64,000 bases of DNA from Hypericum androsaemum. Lineage: Eukaryota > Streptophyta > Magnoliopsida > Malpighiales > Hypericaceae. Shown piece by piece: positions 14,473 to 61,858 of the stretch. The first letter of the stretch is position 1. Each line of letters begins with the position of its first letter. The notes beneath the pieces are model-generated. The model had not been told where the DNA came from and made no database searches. It worked only from the letters and a program-made list of their open reading frames with translations. Position numbers and translations under genes: made by a program. The stretch lies in the NCBI GenBank assembly GCA_963995505.1, contig OZ023181.1, positions 7,787,487 through 7,851,486 of the forward strand, written 5' to 3'.

Positions 14473-14480
14473 AACTAAAC

Positions 14481-14525
14481 TTCCTCTCTCCTCAAAAGGG
14501 ATCGAGAGGATATTTACAATAAATT
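14481..14525 (+). repeat. Inverted copy of the Rep 3' UTR (viral small-intergenic-region-like)
   Basis: The plus strand here (core CTCCTCAAAAGGGATCG, then GAGGATAT and ACAATAAATTA) matches the minus strand of 15411-15461, just downstream of the Rep stop codon. In geminiviruses the coat protein and Rep genes converge on one short intergenic region holding both polyadenylation signals. The sequence lies downstream of the coat protein relic here and downstream of Rep there, so both look like copies of that viral region. Confidence 0.65.
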
Positions 14526-15085
14526 AGTCATAGACCCACTTGAAATATGTTGTCATAGGTCCGTCAACTTGAATAGGCGACTCGACGCCATTATACAAGA
14601 TACAAAGCACCTTGCTCCACATCCCAAATAGTCCCAGTCGCCGATGACTTCCAGCTTGTTGGAATGTTAAGATTCTTCCAAAAGAACTTCTTAGAAACAG
14701 CCAGCTTCGCAGGCTGACAAGGGTGAGATCTAGCACCATCACTTGAACTGATGCAGGTAGAAGTTAAACCTAACATGACCCTCATGTTTTACAATAAAAC
14801 GAGTCTTATTATTACGACTAACAGTCGCTTGGTCACAATTAGCCACAGCAACATCGAAGATATCTGTAAACGTCGGAATAGAATAGGGACTGGTATTTCG
14901 ATACAGTTTGGTATAATACTTTAATATTTTTCAAGAATAATATAATTTTTATCTTTCAAAAAAAAAAGAACCGGGGCTGGTGCTAGTTTCATAGACCAGC
15001 CACCAGTACGCATAGTATTCAGCCGAATACATCCAACCAGGAGCCGGAATAAAGAACCTTAATTTACCACCAATATTGTAACAAA
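14524..15085 (-). pseudogene. Endogenous mastrevirus-like coat protein relic
   Basis: Minus-strand translation gives blocks resembling the C-terminal half of a geminivirus coat protein, closest to the mastrevirus type. An aromatic block at about 14980-15070 includes YYAYWWLVYETS. A block at about 14840-14890 includes PTFTDIFD. A block near 14600-14700 includes KKFFWKNLNIP and TIWDVEQGALYLV. The end near 14524-14560 is TTYFKWVYD followed by a stop. The blocks lie in different frames. There are shifts near 14735 and 14600 and a retro-insertion at 14895-14972. No N-terminal part with a start codon was found. It cannot encode capsid protein. Family assignment rests on motif resemblance without a search. 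Confidence 0.6.
14895..14972 (+). mobile_element. Minute 5'-truncated LINE/SINE tail within the coat protein relic
   Basis: A 78-bp insert ends in an A-rich tail (ATCTTTCAAAAAAAAAA) on the plus strand. Similar 9-bp flanks, GGGACTGGT before and GGGGCTGGT after, look like a target-site duplication with one change. The coat protein-like frame resumes on the far side. A dead-on-arrival LINE insertion is the simplest reading. Confidence 0.6.
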
Positions 15086-15410
15086 TCGTTCGATTAAATC
15101 TTGATTATTTATTCTTACCATTACATAAGACCAATAGAGCCACTCATGAACCTAAAAAATTATATCGTTTAAAAGGTATCCGTCGGCTCTTGTTCTGTTG
15201 AAAAGTAACTGATTTTTTTTATAGATCCATAAGTTCTATGAGATCGCTCCAAAAATTGCACGCCAAATTTGCTCCCTTGATTCTACATATAGGCCATAGG
15301 TCATGGCATATTAGAGACTGAACGAATTCCTATACCTATCCAATGACATTTATAAGAGACAAAATTCAGTACAACATGAAATAGAGTTTGAGACAATCAA
15401 CAAATTCTTA
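15086..15410. other. Spacer between coat protein relic and Rep 3' UTR
   Basis: No protein similarity was recognised. The spacer is not an antisense copy of the coat protein end, which would follow the Rep 3' UTR in an unrearranged viral genome. It may be rearranged viral or filler host sequence. Confidence 0.4.
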
Positions 15411-15411
15411 A

Positions 15412-15417
15412 TTTATT
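15412..15417 (-). terminator. Polyadenylation signal AATAAA of the actin-Rep gene
   Basis: A perfect AATAAA on the minus strand lies 54 bp past the Rep stop codon, within the sequence that also occurs inverted beside the coat protein relic. It is probably the original viral polyadenylation signal. Confidence 0.6.
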
Positions 15418-15471
15418 GTACATATCCTCCCGATCCCTTTTGAGGAGAGTGGAAGTTTTGGGCCGTCATGA

Positions 15472-16391
15472 TTAAAATAAAGGGGAATCTATATTGATGA
15501 AAATTACATTATGTGATGCCCATTCGGCGAATCCGGGGTCCGCAGCTATGTCTCTATGATATGACATATCCTCGTTACAAAGAACTATTGTGGGTATTCC
15601 GCCTTTCATAGTTACTGCCTTCTTCCGGTATTTCCGGTCCGAGGTGTAGTCGCGTTTCGCCCCAAGTAGTCCTTTCTTGTTTGGGAGGGATTTGAATTTT
15701 ACATTGTCTAATACATTATATAACGCGTCGTTGTTATACAGACTGAAATCGACAAGATTTGCAAAGTAATTGTGGGGGCCGAGACTTCGGGCCCATTCGG
15801 TCTTGCCCGTTCTCGGTGGGCCTTCCAGGATTAGGGATATGGGGCGATCTGGTCTGGGGTTAGGTTTCTGTAATTAAGATTCAAACAGTCAGGTTAGGTT
15901 CTGTCATCAATCTCAATTTGTTGTTATTTCGTCAGTTGCCAATTATTGCAATTTGCGTGCTTGGAATACTTACAGTGTAGAGGTTTTTGTCGCACCATTC
16001 TTGAATGGCTGCGGGTAGATGAGGGAAATTGCGGTATCTGGGTGTATACACTTCAGTGGGAGTGGGCCACATGTAGTTGGCAGCGTACAACAATTTTCTG
16101 CGATATCTGGCCAACACATGTGGTTGTTCTCGTTCAACCCTTCCAAGGAAATCCTCCTTGGATGTGGATTCCGCCAGAATTCGCCCCCATATTGCGTCTC
16201 TGGTGGACTTCCTGGGCGCATCGTCGCCCGCAAACCTGGCCTGCGTACATTAAAAAAAAACCCGAATAAGAAACTCATAGACAGTAGTAGTAGTTCGGAA
16301 TTACCCATAAGTTAGTCAACAACTAACTAACCTTCACCATTCCGGTACCATTGTCACAGACGAGCTGTTGAATACCCTCACCGTCGGCCAT
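15472..16391 (-). CDS. Actin-Rep chimeric gene (actin N-terminus fused to geminivirus-type Rep helicase)
   Basis: Three coding exons (16391-16332, 16240-15974, 15867-15472) join in phase 0 to give 240 residues. Exon 1 is the plant actin first coding exon (MADGEG..., VCDNGTGMVK), and its intron sits at the conserved plant actin position after Lys20. Exon 2 opens with actin-like ARFAGDDAPR and then becomes Rep-like: an oligomerisation region (TSKEDFLGRVERE, then YAANYMWP). Exon 3 is the SF3 helicase/ATPase domain: Walker A GPPRTGKT (residues 125-132), Walker B-like VLDNV (about 161-165), motif C IVLCNED (Asn207). The HUH endonuclease region is absent. The 106-bp intron (GTAAGT to TTACAG) just before the ATPase domain matches the position of the mastrevirus Rep intron. 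Unspliced RNA would stop at 15932, recalling RepA. No frame break is seen. An ATPase or interfering role is inference. Confidence 0.85.
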
Positions 16392-16402
16392 TTCTTAACA
16401 AT

Positions 16403-16635
16403 CTGAGTAAGAATCAGACGACCAATCACCCCAAAAAAATCCCGACAAAATCAATAATCGCACAGATAGAATTAATTCTACACTCGGACGTTCAACGGAC
16501 CAGATCAAGCCACAGAATCAAAGCACCGCCGACTGTTAAATGAAAAATCCACAAGATCTAAACTCCAACACCAAAAACAAACGAAACGACACCGTAAGAA
16601 GTAAAGCAAAAGAGCAAGAGCGTCGTCGATCTCAC
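16403..16635 (-). other. Actin-type 5' leader intron
   Basis: The minus strand shows a donor CAG/GTGAG at 16635 and an acceptor TTACTCAG at 16403, eleven bases upstream of the ATG. A T-rich intron ending just before the start codon is a hallmark of plant actin genes and commonly enhances expression. The leader exon upstream (16636 to about 16715) is rich in CT repeats. Confidence 0.75.
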
Positions 16636-16744
16636 CTGCTGGGAGAGGAGAAGACAGAGAGAGAGAAGGGACGCGCAGATAGCGGCTAAAACGAGGGTAA
16701 GCTTTAGTAGTAGAGATAGAGAGAGAGGGTGGATGGGTGGGGGG

Positions 16745-16752
16745 TTTATATA
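16745..16752 (-). promoter_or_regulatory. TATA box of the actin-Rep gene
   Basis: TATATAAA on the minus strand lies about 110 bp upstream of the leader-intron donor. This leaves room for a short CT-rich leader exon. The arrangement matches a normal plant actin promoter. Confidence 0.65.
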
Positions 16753-16794
16753 GTGGGATAGGGGTTTCGAAATGCAAATGAAATTTGGACCAAA

Positions 16795-16848
16795 TTCGAA
16801 AACATTTTCCCACCAAAAAAATCCGAGAACATTTTCCCACCAAAAAAA
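16795..16848. repeat. Two 27-bp tandem repeats in the actin-Rep promoter
   Basis: Two near-identical 27-bp units (core ACATTTTCCCACCAAAAAAA) stand head to tail about 45-100 bp upstream of the TATA box. They could be duplicated cis elements. No factor-binding motif is claimed. Confidence 0.7.
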
Positions 16849-16989
16849 TTCGAAAATTTTTGGTGTGACGTAAAAGAGAAAGGAACATGAAATGGGACAT
16901 GAGAATCGTATCATTTAGACTACCCACATCAGCAACCCATCCAATCCAGGTCACGGAATAAACATTAGACTCTATTTATAGAGATACAA

Positions 16990-17725
16990 AATTTAATATT
17001 TTTTAAATTATTTTTTAAATTTATTGCTAAAGATAAGCTAACCACAAAAATATTATCCAAATAAATCTATTTTTACGAATAATATTATGCCAAGTAGAAA
17101 TAACTAGATAGTTAGATAAATAAATAATAAAAAAACTAACCAATCCGCTCGGCCGAGCGGATTTCATTTAACACCATTTTTTAAAAAAATATTAAAATAA
17201 TAGGCCGAGCGCTCGGCGCTCGACACTGCTGCAGGTAGTCTTACACCACTAAGGGAAAAAATAGGTTGTTTTGTATATAGGGATTTGATCCCACATTTTC
17301 AGAAAAAAAGGTAGCAGTTGGGTGTGATCTGGCTGACAGCCGCACCGAGAATTGTTTAGTTATAAGACTTAAATTTAATACCTTTTAACAATGACTATAA
17401 ATGGGACAAAATTAATTTTTTAGCCAATTGTATTTAGTACCAAAAAACTCAATTTTAATTATTTTGACCTAAAAAATGTAAATCTCTTTCGCATCATATC
17501 ATATCTGTTGTGTCGTAATATTATTTTCGGATCCTAACGTATGTATAATAAAACTAATATTACAACTAGTGTTCCATAACATAACAATATTATATTATTT
17601 TGGAAGAGTTTTATTACTTTTCAAAAATTTTATCCAACTCGAATTCAATCCAATACAGATGGCACAAACAAATAACTAATATCACTTACAACAATTAAGC
17701 GGATTCCCACCCAAAATTTTTTTAA
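16990..17725. other. AT-rich upstream region with GC palindromes
   Basis: No gene is seen. A 22-bp perfect palindrome and a second GC-rich palindrome stand out from AT-rich surroundings. The tract lies between the actin-Rep promoter and the MULE. Confidence 0.5.
17142..17163. repeat. 22-bp perfect palindrome
   Basis: The centre CCGCTCGGCCGAGCGG extends by three matching bases on each side, making a perfect 22-bp palindrome. A second palindrome, GCCGAGCGCTCGGC, lies about 40 bp further on at about 17203. Such GC islands often sit in MITE interiors, but no element ends were found. Confidence 0.75.
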
Positions 17726-18775
17726 GGGAAAAGTACACTTAAGTACTTGAAGTTTAGCACTTTCCAAGATAAGTCCATGTGGTTTGTTTTCTCGGACATT
17801 TCCGAGTCCCGGGCAGCCCGGGTAGATGCCCAGCTACATGTCTGTCGTGGACATTTTTATTTATTGCTGATTGCTGACGTGGCATGTGACAAATTACCAT
17901 ATTAGTCCCAAATTTGAAATAAAAAAATTGAAGGCCAAGCAACATTGAAAACCCGACAACCCAGAAAAACATTCAAAAAAGCTGAAAAAATGGAAAGTAA
18001 AATTAAGTAATTAATTGGACGATGAATTCGACAATAGAGAAGGAGGAATCAGAATGACGACAATGGCTAGGGAGGTATCAGATACTGGCCGGAACTGATT
18101 GGGCACAGGGAGAGAAAATTACCAGAAATTAATACCTAATAGGAACACCAGGGAGGAGAACGGAGTCGCATCTTCAGCGAACGGCAATGGCCCCCACTCC
18201 CTACCGCTTCCCTCGTCTTTCACTCTGCCTGACTTTGTAACCTCAAACTCGGCCACTCCTTCGCCGATCTTGATCCCCCTGGCTCACCCGCCACCAACCT
18301 CCCCCATCCCCCTCGGGTCGCGGTTGCGGTGGCACCGAGGCCGTGAGTTCCTGCTGCGGCCTCCTCGGCCTTCGCAACATCTTCCCTCCCTTCTCGAGCA
18401 CCTTCCCCCTTATTGGGGTTGGGTTGTGCTTCGTCATTTTGAAATGAAAGTTAGGTATTTTTTCCTACGGGTTTTTCGATTTTCACCTTCTTCTGCAAAA
18501 ATTAAAAGAAATTTTTTTATTTCGAATTTGGGACTGATATGGTAATTTGCCACATGCCACGTCAGCATTGGCAACAAATAAAATGTCCACGTCAGAAATT
18601 AAATGGCGTCGTTTTGGCAACGTGGACAGACATGTGGCCGGGCATCTACCCGGGCTGCCCGGGACTCGCAAATGTCCGAGAAAACAAACCACAGGGACTG
18701 ATTTTGGACGGAAAAAACTACATGTCCTTATCTTGGAAAGCGCTAAACTATATGATACTTAAGTGTATTTTTTCC
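17726..18775. mobile_element. Long-TIR Mutator-like element, non-autonomous
   Basis: The first and last 200 bp or so are imperfect inverted copies. The left end begins GGGAAAAGTACACTTAAG and the reverse complement of the right end begins GGAAAAAATACACTTAAG. Both arms share CGGGCAGCCCGGGTAGATG. The GC-rich interior (about 18100-18440) encodes no transposase, and its frames are low-complexity Pro/Arg-rich. Segment A shows an uninterrupted site (AAAATTTAAGC), which fits a 9-bp AT-rich duplication that has since mutated in the flanks. The interior could be captured host DNA, but I recognise no gene. Confidence 0.75.
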
Positions 18776-19940
18776 AAAAAATTAAGCACATGGCCACAGA
18801 GACCTCAGAATTTTGATTTCAGGAAACCTTGCAAGCTACGAGGAGTCGCAATTTTACAATTGAGAAAGGAAAGAACCTTGACCGATTGGTTAAAAATGGC
18901 CCAATTAGAGAATTGTTGCTGGCCTCGGTGGGCCTTTGAAAGCGTAAAAAATCAACGTAGAGGAGACACAGGAATAGCTTGGTCGAGCTGGAGTTTGGTC
19001 CCTGGGCTCAAAGTTTAGAGCCGTCATTTGGGCCAGGACGACTGCTAGGAGGATTGCATTTGCTTCCAAGGTTAAATAATATCTTTTGCTTACCAAAAAT
19101 GTCAATAAACATCTTGTACTTGGAATTTGTAGACTTAATTTGTCAAATCTGATCATATCTTACGTGACATCTACGTCCATCTTAAATACGCCCCGTGAAC
19201 TTTACTTTACTTCATTATTAATTTGCCTTGCGATTAAAAAAAAACAATTCTATGATCATCATGTTCACAGTGGAAGTCCAAAGACGGAAAAAAAAGCTCT
19301 TGGTTAAAAAACAACTATCTCCCCAACTCCATTTTCTCACTGCAAAAATCCTCCCAAGTTGCAGCAACCATCACGGTAAATCGAAAGGTAGTGAGGGATG
19401 CAAACAATTTCAGGATGTCTTCAAGCACCCTTTCTCTCGGAAGTTGGAGACAAAGATAAGCACGCTTTGGGTTGTGTTTTAAGACGAATAAGATGATAAG
19501 ATGTCGAGTAAATGTTCATGTATATATAACTTCAAGAAAGAAGTAATGACTCCTTTATCATCTTAAAGGTATGATTTTAGGCCAATATCCTTAACTAGAA
19601 AAATTTTCAATTGTCAAAGAGGTATTAGATTCTTTTCAAAGGAAGAGTATGATGGGTTGAAAGGATTTTGTAGATTATTATATTTATTTTTTTAACATGA
19701 GATTAATCTTGCTTATTTAAGATGATGTAGATGCCACACAAAACAATGTGATATGTTGGTGACCGAAAAAGTGGTTCTAGGTTGTTAATTTTTAATTTAG
19801 AAATATATAGAGAATTAAGTGGACTAGTTTGAAGTATAAGATATTTATTAAATATTTGGATCAATAAAAGTGGTTATTTCGCCTTTATTCTTAAACCTTT
19901 GTCGTGGATACCAACCGGTATCACAACATTAGGAGTGTGC
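18776..19940. repeat. Segment B (paralogue of 4054-5029)
   Basis: This colinear copy of the first part of segment A starts immediately after the MULE and ends at GTGCAT near 19940. The short frames seen in both copies are not conserved in length or frame, so the segment is treated as non-coding. Confidence 0.8.
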
Positions 19941-20266: not shown

Positions 20267-20929
20267 TTTTTTTGTGGGCGGAAAGAAGGAAATTATAAAA
20301 AAGAAAGGAAGGAAGAGTACAACAAAGAACCTACGACTTACCTCTCGCCAACCCACAACTTGGGCAGTCAAAAGAGGTGGGGTCCCCCAGTTAACAGACT
20401 AGGAGAGAGCCCGACCAACCTAGAAAATAACTCTGCTGATCTCACAAGCCAGGCAGTCAGAGTGACATCTCCAGTCGGCAGACCAGAAAGACGTCGCCTA
20501 ATAACTACCCCAGCAGACCCCACAAGTCGGCAGTGTTGTGGACCCATCACTAGACAATAGCCTAGCGAAAGGTTGCCTATAGACCTAGCCTTGAGGCATC
20601 CCGTGCAAGGGATCCAACCCGCCCACCCTCCTCGAGGACTGAACGAAGACAAAACCCATACATTTAGTATGTATGGTTGCAGCCGGGGGCTTTTGTAAAA
20701 AACTCTGTTGCCGCCAACAATAGGGAAAAAGATCACCAAAAGTCCCGTTGATACTGCCAGGCCCTATTACAATAGAAATAACCAAGAGACCAAAGAAGTC
20801 GCAATGACGCCACAGCCAGATAGCAATGTCGATCCTGAGAGAAGCGGAGGGATCGCCCGAAGACCCAAAAGTGCAGATTGAAGCTAGCCATCCCCCAAAA
20901 GTCAATGAGTGAACATGTAGAACGGTAAA

Positions 20930-23900
20930 CCCAAGAGGTCTCGCCCGACAAACCTCAATAAAAAATGTGGGGCATTAGGCCACCACCCATCAAGCTGCAG
21001 CTTTGTCAACGCATCAGCCGTAGCGTTCCCCTCCCTATAGAAGTGAGAGACCTGAAAAAGCATGTCACACAATTTTGTTTGTACCTGTAACTAGCTATTG
21101 TGGAACTTCCACGGGACCTGCACCTGTCGACCATGGAACATGAGAAAGACATAGGACAAATCTGTTTCAAACCACAGGCGATGCAGCCCAGTGAGTGCGC
21201 AATTTCCATCGCCAACATCGCTGCCAAAAGTTCGGCCTCATAGGCATAACCAATTCATAATCTTTTCACAAAGCAACCCTGCACAAAACCCCAATGATTG
21301 CGAAAAACACCTACAGCAATAGACGAACCAGGGGAGCCACTAGCGCTACCATCAGTGTTGCACTTTACCCATCTAGGCAAAGGGCAATGCCATCAGACCT
21401 ACTTAATTTGCGGGGCTTTGTTCGACCTATCAGAGATTCCAAAAGCCCGCAGCCACAGCAAGTCCTCCTGCAAATTAAACATACAACCCAGATCAAGAGA
21501 ACCTACTTCAGCCACCAGAGCACGTACCTGAGTCACCACTGAGCCACTACTCCACCTCGAGTTATCATAGATTCTCTTATTCCGCTCCGTCCATATTGCC
21601 CAGACACAAGATATAAATGCAACTCGCCAAAGCGCCTGCAATTGGGGGCTGGGGTTCACCTGTATCTCAAGAACGACCATCTCAGCTAGGCTTGCATAGT
21701 TCCACCATGGTACCTGAAAGAAAGCAAAAAATGTTTTTCAAACCACAATCGAAAAAGAGCACGAGCCAAATAGGTGATTAATGCTCTCTTCCCTTGTAAA
21801 ACATAGGGCACAAAATGAAGGGCCAATAAAGCCTTTCCATCTCAAGGTTTCCCCAGTCGAGAGACACCCATGAATTGCTCTCCAGATGGTCACAGAACAG
21901 CGAGGAGGAATAAATGAAGCCCAAATCCAGGAGCCCCATCGAACCAATGGGAAGGCAGGCTGCAACTTGTGATAGGCAGCCTTCGAAGAAATCACTCCAT
22001 CAGACGAGTGAGTCCAGATAACTTTGTCACTCCCAAGAGTCCCAATCTGGTATGCCCGCAAGTCCTCAACAATATTCGAAAAAGACACATAGAAGTCACG
22101 GTGCAGTTGCCATCTCCCATTCACCCAATAGTCAGACACTGGCTGAGCGAATCGATCACGGAGATGATCGGGAATACCAAGACGATCTGCCAAGACATAA
22201 CCAAGTCAATTGTCAAGATAAAATTGCGCAGAAGAATCTTCCCTAACCAAACTGATCGAGGATTCCACAATATCTTTGAAGCAATCTCGTAAGCCAAGAA
22301 TGATAGAAGACCACACCAAACGAATCTCCTCCCCTCCCTTACAGCAAAAATTGTCTCACAACACTCTCAGATATGGCAGAAGAGAACTAAACATGATGTC
22401 CCATAAAAATCTAAAAAGGAAGGCCAGATTCATTTTAAGCAGTGAACGAAGACCTAGCTCTCCTTCCTCTTTCGGTGTGCAAACACGTTCCCAGGCTACA
22501 GGGCACGAACCCTTTCTCTGAATATCACCTGTCCATAAAAAATTGCGGATACAAGTGTCCATGTACTTAATCAAACCAACAGACCACTTATAAACCATCA
22601 TAGAGTGCACCATAGAACCTTGAATCACCGATTCCACTAGATAAACACGTCCCGCTAAGGAAAAGGAGCTCTCCTTCCATCTAGAAAATTTAGCGACAAT
22701 TCCATCTGCCAATTGCTGCAAGTACCTGGTTCTGGGGGGACCACAAAAGAGGGGAACGCCAAGATATGTAAACGGAAAAGATCCAGAAGCAATCCCCAAA
22801 ATAGAAACAAGTTGAAGCCTCCGGGCTACCCCAAGTCTCGAACCAAAGAACACCTTAGATTTTGTAGGATTATAAAACTGACCCGAGCATGCCGCATATT
22901 CCTGAAGGATTTTCAGAATGGATCTGCAATTCTCTGGCGTGGCCTTACAAAAGATCATCACATCATTCGCATAAAGCAGATGAGTGGGAAAAGAGACTCC
23001 TCTTCCTGCCTTAAAACCAGTCAACTCACCAGACTCACCCGCCTCCAGTAACCTCCTACTAAGGACCTCCTATGTAGCACAAAATAGGAGGGGAGATAAT
23101 GGGTCCCCTTGGCGAACCCCCTGAAAGCAACCAAAGTAGCCTTCAGGCATCCCCTCAACCAGAATCGAGAGCCTAGCAGAGGTCAGGACCTCTCCAATCA
23201 TCCCAGTGAACCGAGTTGAGAAGCCCCATTTTTGCAAAACGGCCAGCGAAAAGTACCAACATATGGTATCAAAAGCCTTACGAATATCAATTTTGAGAGC
23301 CATATTCCCGCAACCTGTGTGCTGCTCCAGGCAATTAATACCCTCAGAGGCAAGGGCAATATAGCCATGAATCCGCCTACTGGGCACAAATCCAAAATGA
23401 TGATAAGATAAGAGAGATGACATAACAGGACCCAGCCTGTTTGCCAAAATCTTAGTGATAACCTTATGGAGAAAGTTGCCCAAAATAATAGGTCAGAAAT
23501 CATCGATTCACAAAGCACTAGAAAGCTTAGGAATCAAGGCAACAAAGCTAGCATTCAGACCCAATAGAAGCCGCCCATATCTGAAAAAGTCTTGAACAGC
23601 CAAAGTAATATCCTCCCCAATAACCGGCCACGAAGCATGATAGAAAGCACTGCCAAAACCATCCGGTCCCGGTGCGCTATCTGGATTCATACCAAAGACA
23701 TCGTTCTTAACTTCCTCAGTCGAAGGGATACAAGTAAGGGCCTCATTCTGATGGTCCTCAATCACGGATGGGATCAATTGATCGACCATACTAAAAGCAC
23801 CTGCATTATTCGATTGCTCCTCAAATAATGACCTCTAAAAACCAATGGTATAATCGCAGATCCTGCCCTTATCTTCGACATATTGCCCATCAATCAGAAG

Positions 23901-24984
23901 AGCAGGGATGCCCACCTTACTTTGGCAAATCTGAATACATCTATGAAAGAAGGACGTATTCTTGTCACCATCTTTCAACCAAGTAGCTCTGCTTTTCTGG
24001 CGCAGGAACATATTATGTTGCTCTAAAATAATATTGTGTTCCTTCAAGGCTGCTTCCTCTTCCCGAACCTGGGTCTCCAGAGGTCCCTGCTCACTGATCT
24101 TGTTTTGGACCTCCACCACTCTACTTGAAGAATCTTCCAACCTATAATTCACATCTTCAAAGGTCTCCAAATTCCACTTACGCAGCAAAGTCTTTAGGCT
24201 ACACAATTTATTCATAACACGAACCATCAAGCACCCTCTAGTACACTGTGACCAGGAATTGTGTACCAACTCTAGAAAGCCTGAGTTCTTGGTCCACATT
24301 TTCTGAAAATAGAAAGATCTCTGAACAACATTCCCATATCTGACAAAAAGAAAAGAGCAGTGGCTTATGGTCAGAGGCATTCCTAAGCAGCGCACGGCAA
24401 GAGATAGAAGGTCAAATGTCCAAAAAACTATTTGAAGCAAGCACCCTGTCAATTTTTGATTCAACATAGCCACCGGCATAACGACCATTGGAGTAGGTGT
24501 ATTTGCCTCCCATAATCAGAATGTCCACTAGATTACATGCACTAATGAAGGCTTGAAATTTCAAGCAGGAATTCTTGTTCGGCAGGCAACGACTAAGTCT
24601 CTCATGGGCTCCCAAAATAGCGTTAAAATCTCCGATCAAAGTAAGTGGTTGTTGTAGCAAATCCATAATAGTATCCCAAAGCTCTCTTCTCCTACAATGT
24701 CGTACGTGGGCGTACACAAAACCAATCAAGAAAGAGCATTGCAGAGAAGCGAAGTGGACAACCAACATTTGTGAGGTAGCTAACACCATATGGGCCAAGT
24801 CCTCTGAATGAGAAGTGAAGACCCAAATATTAGGCTGCGAGGAACCTCTAACATTAACCTCAATATCCACGATAGGCTCTGCAATGGCCACAAAAGAAGG
24901 GTGATATCTCAAGCAATGATCTCTAAGCTGGGTACGGGATTGCTTGTTCCCGATACCTCTGATATTCCAAAAAAGGCAATTCAT
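20930..24984 (-). pseudogene. LINE ORF2: endonuclease, reverse transcriptase, RNase H (inactivated)
   Basis: The start MNCLFWNIRG at 24984 opens an AP-endonuclease domain (IAEPIV, GDFNAIL, SKIDRVLAS) that meets a stop at 24412. RT blocks follow in successive frames: APGPDGFGSAFYH (about 23660), ILANRLGPV, ALKIDIRKAFDTICW (about 23290), GVRQGDPLSPLLF (about 23100), and the catalytic box, which reads YAND instead of [FY]ADD at 22962-22973. A zf-RVT region (KAAYHKLQP) lies at 21738-22193. The RNase H keeps all four acidic positions: NTDGSASG (about 21350), EAELLAA (about 21225), ETDL (about 21170), TADAL (about 21020). A one-base loss near 21182 shifts the RNase H frame. At least four breaks prevent a full protein. 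Confidence 0.9.
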
Positions 24985-26495
24985 TTCGCCCGTTTGGGCA
25001 AGTCTGTGGAGAGCGGGACAGCCTCCTGTTTCGCCTTACTGCGTGTAGTACGTGAGGGTTTAGCTGCCTCATTCTCAACCAAATCCCCCCACTTCTGGTT
25101 CGTCGCAATTGCCATCAGACTCATGGTCTCCTTATCAAAATGGTCTAGAACTTCCGGAGCCAATCCTGATGCGCCCGGAATCTCCGCCACACCCATCGGA
25201 AGAGTCACTAACTCATTACGGATTTGTACCAACTCTTGCCCACTGTTGATAGGAACCTGCATTATCAAAGATTGGTAAGCATCTGAGAGAAAATGTTCGA
25301 TCTCTGATTGCTGCGGCTGAGTCGCAATCGCCAATTCCCTACACATGTTTTGTTCTAACTCAGCCAAAACTCCATCCTGAACTTCCTGGTCTTCCCCAAC
25401 AGAGCCTACAGATGTGGGATTCTCAGCTCCAATAACCACCTGTAAGTCTGTGCTTTTAACTGAAACTTTAACCACCTCATCCAATGAGCTCTGAGCCTGA
25501 GAGTCACTCCCACTTGGAGCTGTGCTTACTGCCGTTGGATAAAGCCCTTCCTCACCTCTTGGACTCCCAGGTTCGCTAGCACCCACTGTAGTGTTAGCTT
25601 GCAGCCGTGCCTCCAAAACACCTCTCACAGTCGCAGTAATCATCTCTTCTCCTCAGCTATTTCACCATCTTCTTGAAGGGCAGCGAAGGCATTAGAGATA
25701 TTGACCACCATAGACGTATTACCACCCTGGCAAGGCAAAGGTTGCGATAAAGCTTGTGAACCCTCCACCTGCGGTTCAACCCTTGTTTCTACCTGACGAC
25801 TCAAATCCTTTCTGGTAGTACCTTCCCCTTGAACTTTTCGCTTACCCTGTGCCACCTCTCTTCTCTTAGCCATTTGGGATTGTAGCTTACGGCAATCAGA
25901 GTCGAGGTGCCCAATAATTTTGCAATGTCCGCAAAAGGCTGGCAAGTTCTCATATCTGATATCAACCCATGTATTCAAATCTTGGGTTTCCACAAAAACT
26001 TTATCCGGCAGCTTCTTTGCAAGATCTGCTTCCACTAATACCCTGACATGAATCCCATACTGCCTCCTCAGGGCTTCCGTATCGACCCTAATCGGTTCGC
26101 CCACAGCTTCTGCTATCCCCAAGACATAGTCCGGCTCAATGAGTTCTGCACAGAGACCAGACAATTTGATCCAAACTCTCGCCAAAGATGTAGTAGTTCT
26201 CGTAGGCTTAAACCCACGAACCCAAGGCAGAAGATAAAGATATCCAATCGGCAACCTCCAGGAAGTTGTCTGGAAAATCGTATCTCGTTCCTGCTCCCAA
26301 TCAAAATGGAACGTGTAGTGCCCCCATGCCAATAGCGAGCATCCTCCATGATGACGTGTTCCAAACTTTCACGATCATACCTCGCAAATCAGACAATGAG
26401 AAAGGCCTTTTTAGCATATCGAGCCGCACTCGCAGCATGTTTTTCAGCAGGAATTTCCAGAATATGGCGGTCTCCTTTAAGAACAGGTTTGACAT
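24981..26495 (-). pseudogene. LINE ORF1 (DUF4283-like, CCHC zinc knuckle), split into frames
   Basis: The N-terminal part (RPFSLSDLRGMIVKVWN) is in one frame and shifts near 26320 into the main frame with FDWEQERDTIF, VWIKLSGL and the knuckle CGHCKIIGHLDSDC. That frame stops at 25640. A further 220-codon frame (25643-24981) starts on an ATG overlapping the stop as ATGA and ends at ORF2 with another ATGA overlap. The third piece has no recognised domain and is acidic and Ser/Gln-rich, as ORF1 C-termini often are. It may be a normal ORF1 tail displaced by an indel, or a separate coupled frame. The product would be an RNA-binding ORF1p. Confidence 0.8.
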
Positions 26496-31213: not shown

Positions 31214-31876
31214 CTAAAAATTGCGTATCAAACCTTCTGGCTCCAACGGGGCCAAGCTCACAACAACAATCTCTTGAAGCACGACCGGAGCTTGAGAGGC
31301 CGAGCTCGAGCCCGACGCCTGTCCACCGACGATCTTCTGGCACGTCTCGATGAGGCAGTGCCTGCAGGTAGGGCAGGACGAGTGCGAGCTAAGCCACTTG
31401 TCGATGCATCGGACATGGAAGCCGTGGTTGCACTTTGGGAGGATCCTTACACGCTCCCCTTTGGTGAACTCGGACAGGCAGATGACGCATTCCGTGTCCA
31501 GCCCCGGTAGCTTCAACTCCGGGGAGTAGATCACCGTCGGGAATGTCTTGAGCGCCTTCTTTTTGACCCCGGTGTTGGCCAGCCTGGCCGGAGCGTGGTT
31601 GGGTTCCGACGAGGAGGCCGCCAAGCTGGAGCATCTCAGCGCGCACCTGATGATCGAGTTGAGCCCCAGAGAGCAAATGAGAGCGCAAAGCAGGACCGAG
31701 AGAACCATCACCACGTTGGCGTCGAAGGCGCTGTCCGGGTCGTGGCTGCTTCGAGGGGCCGCGGATGCTGGTGGTGGTTGGTCGAGTGGTGCGTGTAATA
31801 GGAATCTCCTCGAGTGGAACTCGCCTATTGCGAGCAAGTCTTGGACCAGTTGAGTTGTTGAAGGATAAGTCGACAT
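31214..31876 (-). CDS. RING-H2 finger E3 ubiquitin ligase, ATL family (ATL73/74/78-like)
   Basis: This single-exon frame gives 220 residues. The start at 31876 (MSTYPSTTQ) is preferred because the TATA box lies about 90 bp upstream and the frame further upstream is not family-like. Residues about 54-78 form one hydrophobic membrane segment ([20 protein letters not shown]). A basic linker ([10 protein letters not shown]) and the GLD motif ([11 protein letters not shown]) follow. The RING-H2 finger (about 133-174) has all eight ligands: CVIC, then C-H-H-C in [11 protein letters not shown], then CPTC, with the conserved Trp in DKWLSS. ATL proteins are membrane-anchored E3 ligases that pass ubiquitin from E2 to target proteins and are often stress or defence responsive. 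Length and intronless structure fit. The substrate is unknown. No break is visible and the gene is probably functional. Confidence 0.93.
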
Positions 31877-31963
31877 GTTTTTTAAGGTACGTGAGACGGT
31901 AAGAGGTTGAAGTTGGATGGGGAAGGAGATGAATTTGTTAAGAGTCGTCGCCAGGAGGTCGTG

Positions 31964-31973
31964 TATATATATA
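31964..31973 (-). promoter_or_regulatory. TATA box of the ATL gene
   Basis: The minus strand reads CCCTATATATATACACG about 90 bp upstream of the chosen ATG. This would place transcription start near 31935-31940 and give a short leader. Confidence 0.65.
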
Positions 31974-32910
31974 GGGACATCGAAAATGGTACTTTTATTG
32001 TATTTTTTTGAAGGGTGGTTTATTGTATTGAATGTAACGATTAACATTCTTCGGAAAGGGGAAAAATGGAATTGCTATAGGATTTCGTTGGATTTGGCAT
32101 TAGGGTGCTACGGTGGGTTTTTTTTAGCCTATTGGCTAGTAGATGGCACTCAAAATTATTTGACATGTGGATTAGCTTGAGGCTAGATTTAGATGGTGTA
32201 AGTGTTTCACTGATCTATCGGTCAGTGGACGATCCGTCTCGACTACTCAGATTGTGGAATAACTTGAAGTCTAAGTCTAGACTGTGTCACTTTCGGATCA
32301 TTGGTGGTGGGATCTGGGTGATTTGTTACCAAAACTTCTTTTTCATTTTCTTTAGCAATAAAAATAGCTAATTATTTTAAAATATATATCGTGTATTCTT
32401 TATATAGGAAGATGATGATCGACTATTTTCTGTTTATATGAGTATAATCATTTCTGTTTCGTTTTATGCTTATGTTTATGTGCAGATTTTTAAGGATGGG
32501 TTAGAAGTAATATTGGGTTGAAAACAAACGATTTATTATAATTTGGAGTTAGATCATGGATTTAAAATTATAATTTTTTTTGGGTGAATTCAATTAATTT
32601 GTTTGTTGAACTAGTTTGACATAGTAGTCACAATTATTAGTTCAAATAGAGTGTATTTGAGAATATTTGCAGTGTTTTATCTTTCTATTATGTTCTTTGC
32701 GGTGGTTTTACCTTTTAAGCCCATGTGGCTGCTCCACTAAACCTTTATGTGTTTTAATAGCTTTCTTATAAAAAAGAAGACCCTCCCACTTTCTTGTGCT
32801 CGAATAGAATTACGTGGAGCTTGCTTTACATAAAATTTATATCTAATTTTAGGGGTCTGAGTACCTGAGGAAGGGCTTGGGAAACTTCCTAATCTAAAGG
32901 AAGGTAGTTA

Positions 32911-58784: not shown

Positions 58785-60480
58785 ATGCCAAGAACCCAAA
58801 GTGAAGGACTAGACCTTGACATAGACGATGTGCTTGAGGTTGACATCAGAGTACTTGAAAGGGTAAATTGGTGCGAAAGGAGGAACCCAAACGAGATCAA
58901 TGGCACAAAATCAGAAAGACTGAGTGAACCACGCTCTTGTGGATGCTCCACAAAGAAGGACGCTGCTGGAATCGTCCGTCCCCGTATGAAATAGAAATCC
59001 TAATGGTTTACAACAACCAGCTGTAGGCCCCAACGCCTTCCAGATCCCAGCGGCAATTGTCGAATTACTGCAAAACTCGGTCTAATTTGGTGCGTGCCAA
59101 ACGAAGATGCTCAAGACCATCTCTCTCGATTTGAAGACATATGGAACATCATGAAGTTCCAAAATATCAATGATGATGTCTTGAAGCTGCATCTTTTCTA
59201 CTTCTTTTTGAAAGATCGAGTTCGTATTTGGTACAACAAGTTAAAAAGAGAGACAATAAGAAGTTGGACTGATCTGGCCCATATTTTCCTGCAGAAGTTC
59301 CTTTCTATGGCCAAGACAGCCAAACTCTTGCAAGAAATCAACACATTTATATAAGGAGGTGGGGAGAGCATCTATGAAGCTTGGAAACAGTTCACTGATC
59401 TTCAAAGTGCCCTTCTCTCAATATGGCATAACTCAGGAGAACCTCATGAAGATCTTTTACAATGTGTTAGATGGCCCATCTCGTGCTCATATTGCCGCCT
59501 CATCTCAAGGGGTGTTCTTGAGAAAGATTGCTAATGAAGCTGCTCATTTGATGGAGGAGATGGCTGGGGTCAATGACATGTGGCCAAAAGAACACGCCAA
59601 GCAACCACATAAGAAAGTAACCCGAGGGGTACATGAAGTGGATAGCAACACCAGGCTTAAAGCTAAATTGGAGGCACTTACCAAAAGATTTGAATAATTG
59701 GCCAAAGACAAGAAAAAGGCAGCTACGGTGTAAGATACTTATGAGCTTTCCAAAGAATCACATCATACTAATGATTGTCCAATGTTTGGGGAGATTCAGA
59801 TCATCACTGATAGAACATCACCAAGTATGGGCTACTTAAAATAAACTAATGCTCAGCAAAAATTTTCTCAATTTGGCCAGCAGGCAAACAATACTAGTGC
59901 CCAACAAGAACCTAAGAAACCATATTTGAGAGATCAAGTCAAAGAAATGGGTGAGAAAATTAATCAATTAGTGGGAGACCAAGCCAATGTCTTCTTAAAG
60001 ATCGATCAATTGGTAGGGGTGGCCCAGCAGTCCATCCAACAACAAAACATAAGTGTGCAGCAGATTGATCATATTAAAGCCCGCCAACAAGAAGTGGCAA
60101 TGTTGCTCAAGGGGCAGGCCACTCTACTAAAAAAGATGGAGACCAAACTCAAAAATTTTGGCTGCAGTAAACACTTAAAGGCCAATAGGTTCTCTACCAA
60201 GTAACACAGAGCCAAACCCACGAGGAAAAGTGATGGCCATCATATTGAGGAGCGTGAATGAGAATGATGAACCATATATTCTTCCACCACCTTATGTCCC
60301 TCCACCTCCATTCCCTCAAAGACTTCTGAGAATGGCACCACTTGAGAATAGGTCCTCTCGAAAAGAGCGTGTTGAACCGATCAAGCCAGTTATAGAAGAA
60401 GAGGTAGTTGCTAAAAATAATGAGGAACAAGCTAAAAGCGGTGAAAAAGAGGATTCTTATATTCTCTCAATATCTCCTCA
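58785..60480 (+). pseudogene. Gypsy gag (frameshifted)
   Basis: A first frame opens at 58785 (MPRTQSEG). The Retrotrans_gag core lies at 59094-59354 (HLSRFEDIWNIM, KDRVRIWYNKL, SWTDLAHIFLQKF, KTAKLLQEI) and stops at 59354. The frame then shifts, and YNVLDGPSRAHIAASSQG and AHLMEEMAGVNDMWP appear at 59450-59600. A coiled-coil-like Gln/Lys-rich frame (59926-60204) and a short frame to 60480 complete the region. Stops between these parts prevent a single Gag. Confidence 0.8.
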
Positions 60481-60498
60481 ACAAGTCAAGAAAGACAC

Positions 60499-61098
60499 AT
60501 GATCGATGAGAATGCTCTTGAATTTATTGTGACAGTGGACAATATTCAAAGCCATCTCTTCTTATTAGAGATGTTAGAACAAAGACCACAATATGCCGAG
60601 TTCCTTAAGAAAATTATCGCAAAGAAGAAAGAGCGGAACGATGGCGAGATGACCCCTTTGGTAGCAAATGGCACACTGCCAAAATTGAAAGATCCAGAGA
60701 GTTTCACTATTCCTTGCACTATTGATGGTGTTCAGTTTCCATATTGCTTATGTGATTTGGGTGCCAATGTTAATCTTATGCCTTTGGCTAGTTTCAGAAA
60801 ACTCAAATTAGGGGATGTCAAACCTACACTTCAAAAGCTTCAGCTTGCAGATCAAACTATGAAGAAACCACATGGAATCGTGGAGGATGTGCTAATCAAA
60901 GTTGATAAGTCTCTAATACCTGTAAACTTTGTGGTGCTGGACTATGCTGCTAATGGAAGTTACCTACTGATTCTGGGATGTCCATTCCTCAACACTAGTC
61001 ATGCAATGGTGGATGTCCATAATGGCAAGCTACTTCTCTGTATAGACCTAAATGAAATAGAGTTCCAAGTAACCGATGGGTATCTTCGTCTACTATAG
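60499..61098 (+). pseudogene. Gypsy retropepsin (aspartic protease) domain
   Basis: A 199-codon frame contains the Athila-type protease: FTIPCTIDGVQFPYCLCDLG, with the catalytic Asp in CDLGANVNLMPLASFRKL, then LQLADQT, VLDYAANGSYLLILGCPFL and NTSHAMVDVHNG. The frame ends at YLRLL. It would normally continue to reverse transcriptase, which is missing here. Confidence 0.85.
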
Positions 61099-61858
61099 TG
61101 CCAAAAGGAGTAACACAGTCAACCAATGACTCTAAATTAGCAAGTTTAGTATTTAATTTTTCTTTATTTTTGTGTTTGCTTCAGTATTGTTATTTTGATT
61201 TAGTATTTTAATAGTCTTAGCAGGAGGTTTAAAGAAGAGAAAATAAGATTTAGACGAAGCTCGCCAGTCCCTACAAAAACTTTGCTGCGTGCTAAAGACA
61301 ATTGAAGCAAAACACCAACAACCTTCCCCATCGCCTCCTTCTAAAGATTGACAGGGCGGTATCAGTCAACTTCTCTTTCTTTTCTGTGTCATATGATGTG
61401 TTTGTGGTTTTGGTTCTGTGTTTCTGTGATGTTGTGTTATTTTATGTATGTCTTGCCCCCACATTGAGGACAATGTGTTCAATAAATGTGGGGGTGCCCA
61501 ATGTGTTTTTGTTTCTTTTGGAGTATGTGATCAAGTCTAGGTCTGAATTTAGGAGTGTGTTTATGTTTAATGTGGTGTCAAAAGCAGATGATAAAACTTC
61601 ACCCTTGAATAATTGACCCCTTAGCAATCGATAGGATTAAGCCAATGGTAAAAGTCGTTCTTGCTTTTCACCCTAGGAGTGCTCATGTCAGGACAAAAGT
61701 AGCAACGATAGGATTAAGCCCATAGTAAAAGTAGTTCTTGCTTTTTAAAATCTCATAATTGGACTAAGCAATTACTAGGATACGGGACCAAAAGAACACA
61801 TGAGTAGTTGAGGGAACACACTCTTAGTAACCGAACCCCACTTGTATATTAAAAAGAT
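61099..61858 (+). other. Gypsy region downstream of protease, no pol
   Basis: No RT or integrase text is present. The phrase TGCCCCCACATTGAGGAC and the block AATAAATGTGGGGGTG near 61450-61495 are typical of the 3' region of Athila-like elements. The pol genes were probably deleted between about 61100 and 61450. Confidence 0.6.

Follow-up and report, generated by a model that had tools for sequence, protein, structure and literature searches.

An in-frame actin–Rep fusion in Hypericum androsaemum, a candidate host gene derived from an integrated geminivirus

The 64,000-nucleotide stretch of Hypericum androsaemum DNA analysed here (the window, C2:7787487-7851486, on a contig of a 385-Mb assembly comprising 29 contigs) contains an in-frame fusion between the 5' part of an actin gene and a truncated geminivirus-type replication protein, Rep. 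This gene-like unit lies on the minus strand, spans window coordinates 16752 down to 15412 and is complete from the TATA box to an AATAAA signal, and its anatomy as an actin–Rep fusion is confirmed. A preliminary description of the same DNA had proposed an actin TATA box, leader intron, first exon and phase-0 intron leading into Rep, as well as 240 open codons with canonical splice sites; each of these elements was recovered in its place, and the open frame and the splice sites were reproduced. As a tentative reading, to which somewhat less than an even chance is given, the fusion may be a host gene formed from a truncated, possibly ATPase-impaired Rep, which would most plausibly act by interfering with Rep oligomers.

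Structure and origin of the fusion gene

The unit opens with the TATA box TATATAAA (16745-16752, starting at 16752), a pattern match aligned with the corresponding TATA box of the parent actin described below, and continues through a leader intron of 233 bases in the 5' untranslated region (5' UTR; GTGAGATCGA...TTACTCAG, 16403-16635), likewise aligned to the parent; the spliced leader, with transcription assumed to start at 16718, contains no ATG. Coding exon 1 (MADGEGIQQLVCDNGTGMVK, 16332-16391) supplies 20 codons that align to actin codons 1-20 and differ from the parent by D6G and P9Q, and is followed by intron 1 (GTTAGTTAGT...GTACGCAG, 16241-16331), which is in phase 0 and aligned at the same position as in the parent actin. 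Exon 2 (15974-16240) holds 89 codons, the first ten of which encode the actin residues ARFAGDDAPR, including the change G22R, while the remainder encodes the oligomerisation or central domain of Rep, recognised by the Pfam family Gemini_AL1_M. Intron 2 (GTAAGTATTC...TTAATTACAG, 15868-15973), also in phase 0, lies inside the viral part and was placed by the continuity of this profile over the splice, and exon 3 (15867-15475), assigned by sequence matches, adds 131 codons of the Rep ATPase domain before the stop codon TAA (15474-15472). The AATAAA poly(A) signal (15412-15417, a pattern match) is found 55 bases beyond this stop. The coding length of 20 + 89 + 131 = 240 codons is interrupted by no stop, and the three introns are all GT-AG.

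The actin part is confined to residues 1-30 of a protein whose full length is about 377 residues. With a plant actin sequence as the query, tblastn of the window found residues 1-20 and 19-30 at the fusion, and the remaining actin residues gave only weak, chance-level matches elsewhere in the window. Actin-family matches at exon level number 52 in the genome, and one intact gene, at C2:7779582-7780970, lies on the same strand as the fusion at a distance of 22.9 kb from start codon to start codon. When the 5' regions of nine actin loci were compared, besides eight loci from the family search, this gene was the sole locus among those compared to align through the promoter, the leader, both introns and the 30 codons, the second-best locus being a gene on C9 with three short aligned stretches. 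The duplicated part, as delimited by blastn and alignment, comprises promoter, leader, leader intron, exon 1, intron 1 and ten exon-2 codons (16211-17347, minus strand), and the gapped similarity between parent and fusion ends at 16211, which is at once the last actin codon and the actin/Rep junction. A chance origin of the actin part is excluded, because a paralogous actin gene aligns from 17347 to 16211.

Parent and fusion differ at 67 of 477 noncoding positions (14%), with 16 indels, and at four of the 90 bases of the actin codons, where three of the differences change residues (D6G, P9Q and G22R); all three changes lie on the fused copy, and the parent retains the canonical sequence. With a nearby parent and a noncoding divergence that reaches 14% with 16 indels, the alignments mark the 5' part of the fusion as a partial duplicate of actin that arose locally rather than as a recent construct. 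A transposon that captured the actin 5' region was considered and set aside, because with the source on the same strand and 23 kb distant, local duplication is the simpler account. In its promoter, the fused copy has an insertion of approximately 380 bases (16925-17302) that is missing in the parent promoter, and it carries additional copies of a 27-base tandem repeat (16792-16860) relative to the parent promoter. Upstream of the actin promoter, positions 17717-18783 are occupied by an element of approximately 1.07 kb with long terminal inverted repeats, which consist of segments of 84, 58 and 38 nt matching at 87-95%; 31 bases of one end of this element recur upstream of the parent actin gene.

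Viral part of the fusion and its relatives

Exon 2 matches Gemini_AL1_M (PF08283) over profile positions 2-80 with an E value of 6.9e-12 and 45.9 bits, the cut-off being 24, and exon 3 shows a weak match to the last 22 positions of the profile, below that cut-off (E 0.0065, 17 bits). Between profile position 80, the last one matched by exon 2, and position 86, where the exon 3 match takes over, there are exactly five residues, so that the splice restores the spacing of the family. We infer that intron 2 is the virus's own Rep intron, and the presence of an intron within Rep suggests a virus lineage with a spliced Rep, as certain geminivirus genera possess. The earlier claim that thirty actin residues stand in place of the Rep endonuclease domain was borne out as well: actin codons 1-30 occupy the place of this domain in frame, and, of the 88 open frames of at least 35 amino acids between 12.8 and 18 kb, 71 were compared with the endonuclease family Gemini_AL1 and none matched at E 0.05, the other 17 frames lying in or across the Rep exons.

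Similarity of the translated exons to known proteins, which the preliminary description had proposed to search for, held for exon 3, which matches Rep-like proteins, and failed for exon 2, with no match at E 0.001. The best protein relative of exon 3 is P0024 (49% identity over 99%), the best near-full-length identities are those to Reps of Rhododendron and Begomovirus sp., and 16 phytoplasma plasmid records are matched too (best E 3e-9). Scans of a viral contig collection with exon 3, exon 2 and A1 gave no confirmed locus and a degenerate exon-3 pattern gave none either, so that this collection could not place the virus. A phage collection yielded no match, searches of solved structures returned only weak matches of exon 3 to other ATPases and none for profile A2, and AlphaFold2 gave exon 3 a mean pLDDT of 39.6, too low for the model to be used.

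Exon 3 carries a Walker A motif (GPPRTGKT), a Walker B motif (LDN) and a sensor-1 Asn within IVLCN, the motif names following general knowledge and the papers cited. The Walker A Lys (GKT), the first Walker B Asp (D54) and the sensor-1 Asn are retained, and the Walker B pair is Asp-Asn, not Asp-Asp. Among 43 relatives, this pair is Asp-Asp in 36, Asp-Asn in one, Asp-Gly in two and Asp-Glu in one, with three not aligned; a pair other than Asp-Asp is thus present in four of the 40 scorable relatives. Alignment A6 consists of 38 rows and excludes six of the 43 relatives (P0008, P0038, P0039, P0040, P0042 and P0043, with P0038 among the two Asp-Gly relatives). In this alignment, the second Walker B Asp is kept in 34 of the 37 other rows and is Asn in the fusion (D55N), while Gln71 is kept in 35 of the 37 and is Lys in the fusion (Q71K). 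With near-invariant positions defined at a 90% threshold, the fusion differs at three of 16 (S18P, D55N and Q71K), which gives it rank 4 of 38; it differs at one of 11 positions at a 95% threshold (rank 7) and at three of 32 at an 80% threshold (rank 11). Walker B is described as an absolutely conserved Asp in Geminiviridae in a passage of PMC8780604, and in the Rep of porcine circovirus the substitution of Ala for the Walker B Asp, the Walker A Lys or the motif C Asn renders ATPase activity undetectable (PMC8406172). The ATPase of the fused Rep is possibly impaired, its loss being less than certain because D54, the Walker A Lys and the sensor-1 Asn are kept and the Asp substituted in the circovirus could correspond to either member of the pair.

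The relative P0024 is a database gene model of Rhododendron molle (RHMOL_Rhmol01G0306900), known from the protein model only. Of its first 38 residues, 37 are identical to histone H4 (E 4e-18), and its Rep part begins at residue 33, at Gemini_AL1_M position 4, with no match to Gemini_AL1. Like the actin–Rep fusion, P0024 joins a host N-terminus to the oligomerisation and ATPase regions of Rep with the endonuclease domain unmatched, and both D55 and Q71 are altered in the two proteins; unlike it, the host partner is histone H4 and not actin, and the ATPase domains share 49% identity. At the 90% threshold, P0024 differs at two of the 16 positions (D55G and Q71E), both of which are among the three altered in the fusion, an overlap whose chance probability of 0.025 was computed after the fact. 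Given the different host partner and the 49% identity, P0024 is apparently of independent origin, and two plants appear to have joined a constitutive host protein, through some 30-35 of its residues, to Rep at the same boundary.

A possible history of the locus starts with an ancient geminivirus fragment that would have integrated in or beside the local partial actin duplicate, giving rise to a full transcription unit composed of the actin promoter, the leader intron, 30 actin codons, the whole of Rep from the oligomerisation domain onwards with an intron within it, and a poly(A) signal. The actin promoter would lead to transcription and translation in many tissues, as for actin. With less certainty, the 240-residue protein might then enter the Rep oligomers of an infecting geminivirus by means of its kept oligomerisation domain, and the mixed oligomers would be poisoned, because the protein brings no endonuclease and is probably impaired in ATP hydrolysis. 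In circovirus Rep, hexamers are held together by the oligomerisation domain (PMC8406172); moreover, plants transgenic for Rep oligomerisation domains are cited as resistant in PMC5014472, a paper in which endogenous rep has already been proposed as a natural resistance resembling such transgenes. Two observations favour interference, namely the altered Walker B acidic residue and the Rhododendron protein that shares the architecture and the altered sites, and a live gene is supported by the TATA box, splice sites and leader that are kept and by the presence of AATAAA. A wider proposal, which must be considered doubtful, is that plants repeatedly made antiviral Rep decoys, in which the endonuclease was swapped for a constitutive host promoter and approximately 30 host residues (of actin here, of histone H4 in Rhododendron) and ATPase residues were convergently lost, and which would poison the hexamers of the incoming virus.

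The single-locus status of the integrated virus is based on domain searches with PF08283 and PF00844: PF08283 has one match in the 385-Mb assembly, which is the fusion locus, and PF00844 (Gemini_coat) has two matches in the whole genome, both less than 1 kb downstream of the Rep stop. The two Gemini_coat matches (E 3.1e-5 and 5.4e-5, each under the curated cut-off) mark a decayed coat-protein remnant (14527-14897, minus strand) in at least two and probably three successive frames; since the pieces span adjacent profile positions, 125-165 and 168-218, in different frames, the coat protein contains at least one break. A second break is likely, from a third open piece without a Pfam match that was taken as the coat-protein end by eye. 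The 50 bases right after the Rep end, which carry the poly(A) signal (15409-15458, minus strand), have an inverted copy at the coat-protein end (14477-14526, plus strand), identical at 47 of 50 positions when reversed. The arms flank 882 bases in opposite orientations, and two fragments of a single virus have therefore probably been joined with their order inverted. Among the frames of at least 35 amino acids in the half kilobase between the viral pieces (14898-15408), none has a convincing Pfam match.

With its Rep and coat-protein pieces embedded in a contig of 25 Mb that carries an actin gene and retroelements next to them, the locus is an endogenous geminiviral element (EGV). The coat-protein match, together with the Reps of Begomovirus sp. 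and Rhododendron among the relatives, place the viral source within Geminiviridae rather than Genomoviridae; the match of the adjacent remnant to Gemini_coat is weak but falls in two adjacent pieces, and a geminivirus-like mycovirus is described in PMC3198968 as having a coat protein without similarity to those of geminiviruses. The retroelements of the window include a LINE-type element with broken frames on the minus strand (20600-26370; DUF4283, zinc knuckle and reverse transcriptase), a gypsy remnant with a retrotransposon gag match (59004-61613), and RVT_2 and rve pieces among the further frames scanned. A RING finger protein frame of 286 codons (31217-32074, minus strand) and an AP2-domain frame are also present in the window.

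Age, selection and competing explanations

A serious rival to the reading as an interfering host gene is that the fusion is a neutral relic, either young or lucky, whose Rep frame is still open and which is perhaps transcribed without having any function, an account that is credible without reaching an even chance. The neutral clock was taken from the parent-to-fusion divergence, with 75% of indels assumed to be frameshifting and 630 bases of Rep at risk. Had the virus integrated at the time of the duplication, approximately two stops and eight frameshifts would be expected, with a probability of none of 0.0000 as printed, and integration at half the duplication age would give approximately one stop and four frameshifts (probability of none 0.007); at a tenth of the duplication age, the probability of an open frame under neutrality rises to 0.37, which suits a relic. 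A relic would also agree with the broken coat protein next door, and in a survey of endogenous Rep homologues 75% were shorter than the shortest Rep of a free-living geminivirus, suggesting truncation or decay (PMC7758297). By contrast, the open frame has a neutral probability of approximately 0.03 on the intron and indel clock, the TATA box, splice sites and poly(A) signal are intact, the parallel fusion exists in R. molle, and CpG decay is absent. The observed/expected ratio of CpG reaches 1.01 for the promoter and 0.89 for Rep, versus 0.55 for the LINE and 0.35 for the gypsy remnant, and 21 of the 27 alignable CpGs of the parent are retained in the fusion.

Several observations weigh against the reading as an interfering host gene, and the open Rep frame beside a broken coat protein is suggestive only as a sign of selection. 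The median integration age, as a fraction of the duplication age, is 0.47 from the arms, 0.51 from two coat-protein breaks and 0.46 from both (limits 0.12-0.96), with corresponding neutral probabilities of no lesion of 0.036, 0.038 and 0.028, but these figures are model-dependent, rest on three differences in 50 bases and two frame breaks in 371 bases (one by eye), and assume that the arms were identical at integration. Both breaks would have landed in the coat-protein part by length alone with a probability of 0.14. The actin codons are near neutral on the fused branch, as a relic would have it (three nonsynonymous changes versus 6.4 expected, P 0.12), and exons show no clear slowing relative to introns on this branch (p 0.09); when both branches are taken together, the 5' UTR exon and the actin codons are slower than the introns (p 0.002 and 0.0003), which is not decisive because the parent's own constraint can explain it. 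CpG ratios are high outside the fusion too, with 0.86 in the inverted-repeat element, 0.78 in the coat-protein remnant and 0.93 in 14898-15408, and because neighbouring DNA is also high, the retention of CpG means at most that the locus has not been long methylated. In the ATPase domain, the changes at three of 16 near-invariant positions could simply be decay, the retained D54, Walker A Lys and sensor-1 Asn make a loss of ATPase activity less certain, and P0030, an unnamed ENA entry, is altered at both D55 and Q71 plus other sites, so that these two positions may co-vary naturally. Finally, the maize streak virus transgene discussed below retains Rep residues 1-219 (PMC4148390), whereas the fusion has lost the N-terminal domain.

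The remaining explanations are less probable. Immunity at the RNA level, in which the transcript and the inverted-repeat flank from the same virus would be a source of small RNAs for silencing related geminiviruses and the protein would not matter, is improbable: the inverted 50-nt arms, paired at 47 of 50 positions, do adjoin the viral pieces, and transcribed geminivirus-related sequences in transgenic plants can produce silencing-based resistance (PMC5014472), but the arms are short and separated by 882 bases, such immunity needs no open protein frame, and the CpG loss expected of a long-silenced locus is absent. It is very unlikely that the protein has taken on a cellular role unrelated to viruses, for instance binding host replication proteins normally recruited by Rep; Rep does bind many host proteins, RAD54 through the oligomerisation domain (PMC10548238), and the Walker A and sensor-1 residues are retained, yet two near-invariant ATPase-domain sites are altered besides S18, and nothing specific supports such a role. 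An assembly artefact or a transgene is hardly to be entertained. A constitutive actin promoter with its intron placed on a viral gene is a possible design for a plant transgene, but the noncoding sequence has diverged from the parent by 14% and 16 indels, a broken coat protein lies alongside, the locus sits 23 kb from its parent within a contig of 25 Mb, and no marker gene turned up in the Pfam matches of the subset of the window's open frames that was scanned (10, 71 and 87 frames), all of which argues against it.

Relation to known systems and significance

EGVs are known in Dioscorea, Nicotiana, Camellia and other plants (PMC7758297, PMC5014472), and like the locus described here they are integrated partial geminiviruses with Rep, which in some species are transcribed and show signs of purifying selection. 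The fusion differs from them in lacking the endonuclease domain and in possessing a host promoter, and the available passages of both papers describe no in-frame host–Rep protein. Rep copies ranged from 1 to 967 per genome in one survey (PMC7758297), compared with a single Rep match here. A parallel among these elements is found in Camellia, where Rep is co-transcribed with HSP70, also a housekeeping-type host gene, and some sites are under purifying selection; unlike the fusion, two genes of the same orientation share one transcript, with no in-frame host–Rep protein in the passages of PMC7758297 concerned. In Populus, the endogenous element is interrupted by three stops and one frameshift according to PMC3198968, unlike the open frame of the fusion. 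The fusion's promoter design resembles that of the dominant-negative Rep transgenes against maize streak virus, in which an altered Rep under a constitutive promoter blocks replication (PMC4148390).

Neither an actin–Rep nor an H4–Rep fusion was found among the titles and abstract openings listed in literature searches. The words 'fusion', 'chimeric', 'histone' and 'Rhododendron' are absent from the main text of PMC7758297, and no actin gene is named in the passages of it that were available. Endogenous geminiviral elements, their transcription and Rep–HSP70 co-transcripts are thus already known, and what appears to be new is the in-frame fusion of a host protein with Rep.

The suggestion that endogenous geminivirus Reps may play a protective role dates back at least to 2015 (PMC5014472). 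The locus described here is a well-bounded candidate for such a role, since the source of its promoter is known and the parent gene provides a ready control, and Rhododendron offers a second, apparently independent case of the same design. If both fusions are expressed, natural Rep-based protection would become testable in ordinary plants. Moreover, if the interfering role is true, the resistance design of engineers would have arisen by itself, as a natural counterpart of dominant-negative Rep transgenes.
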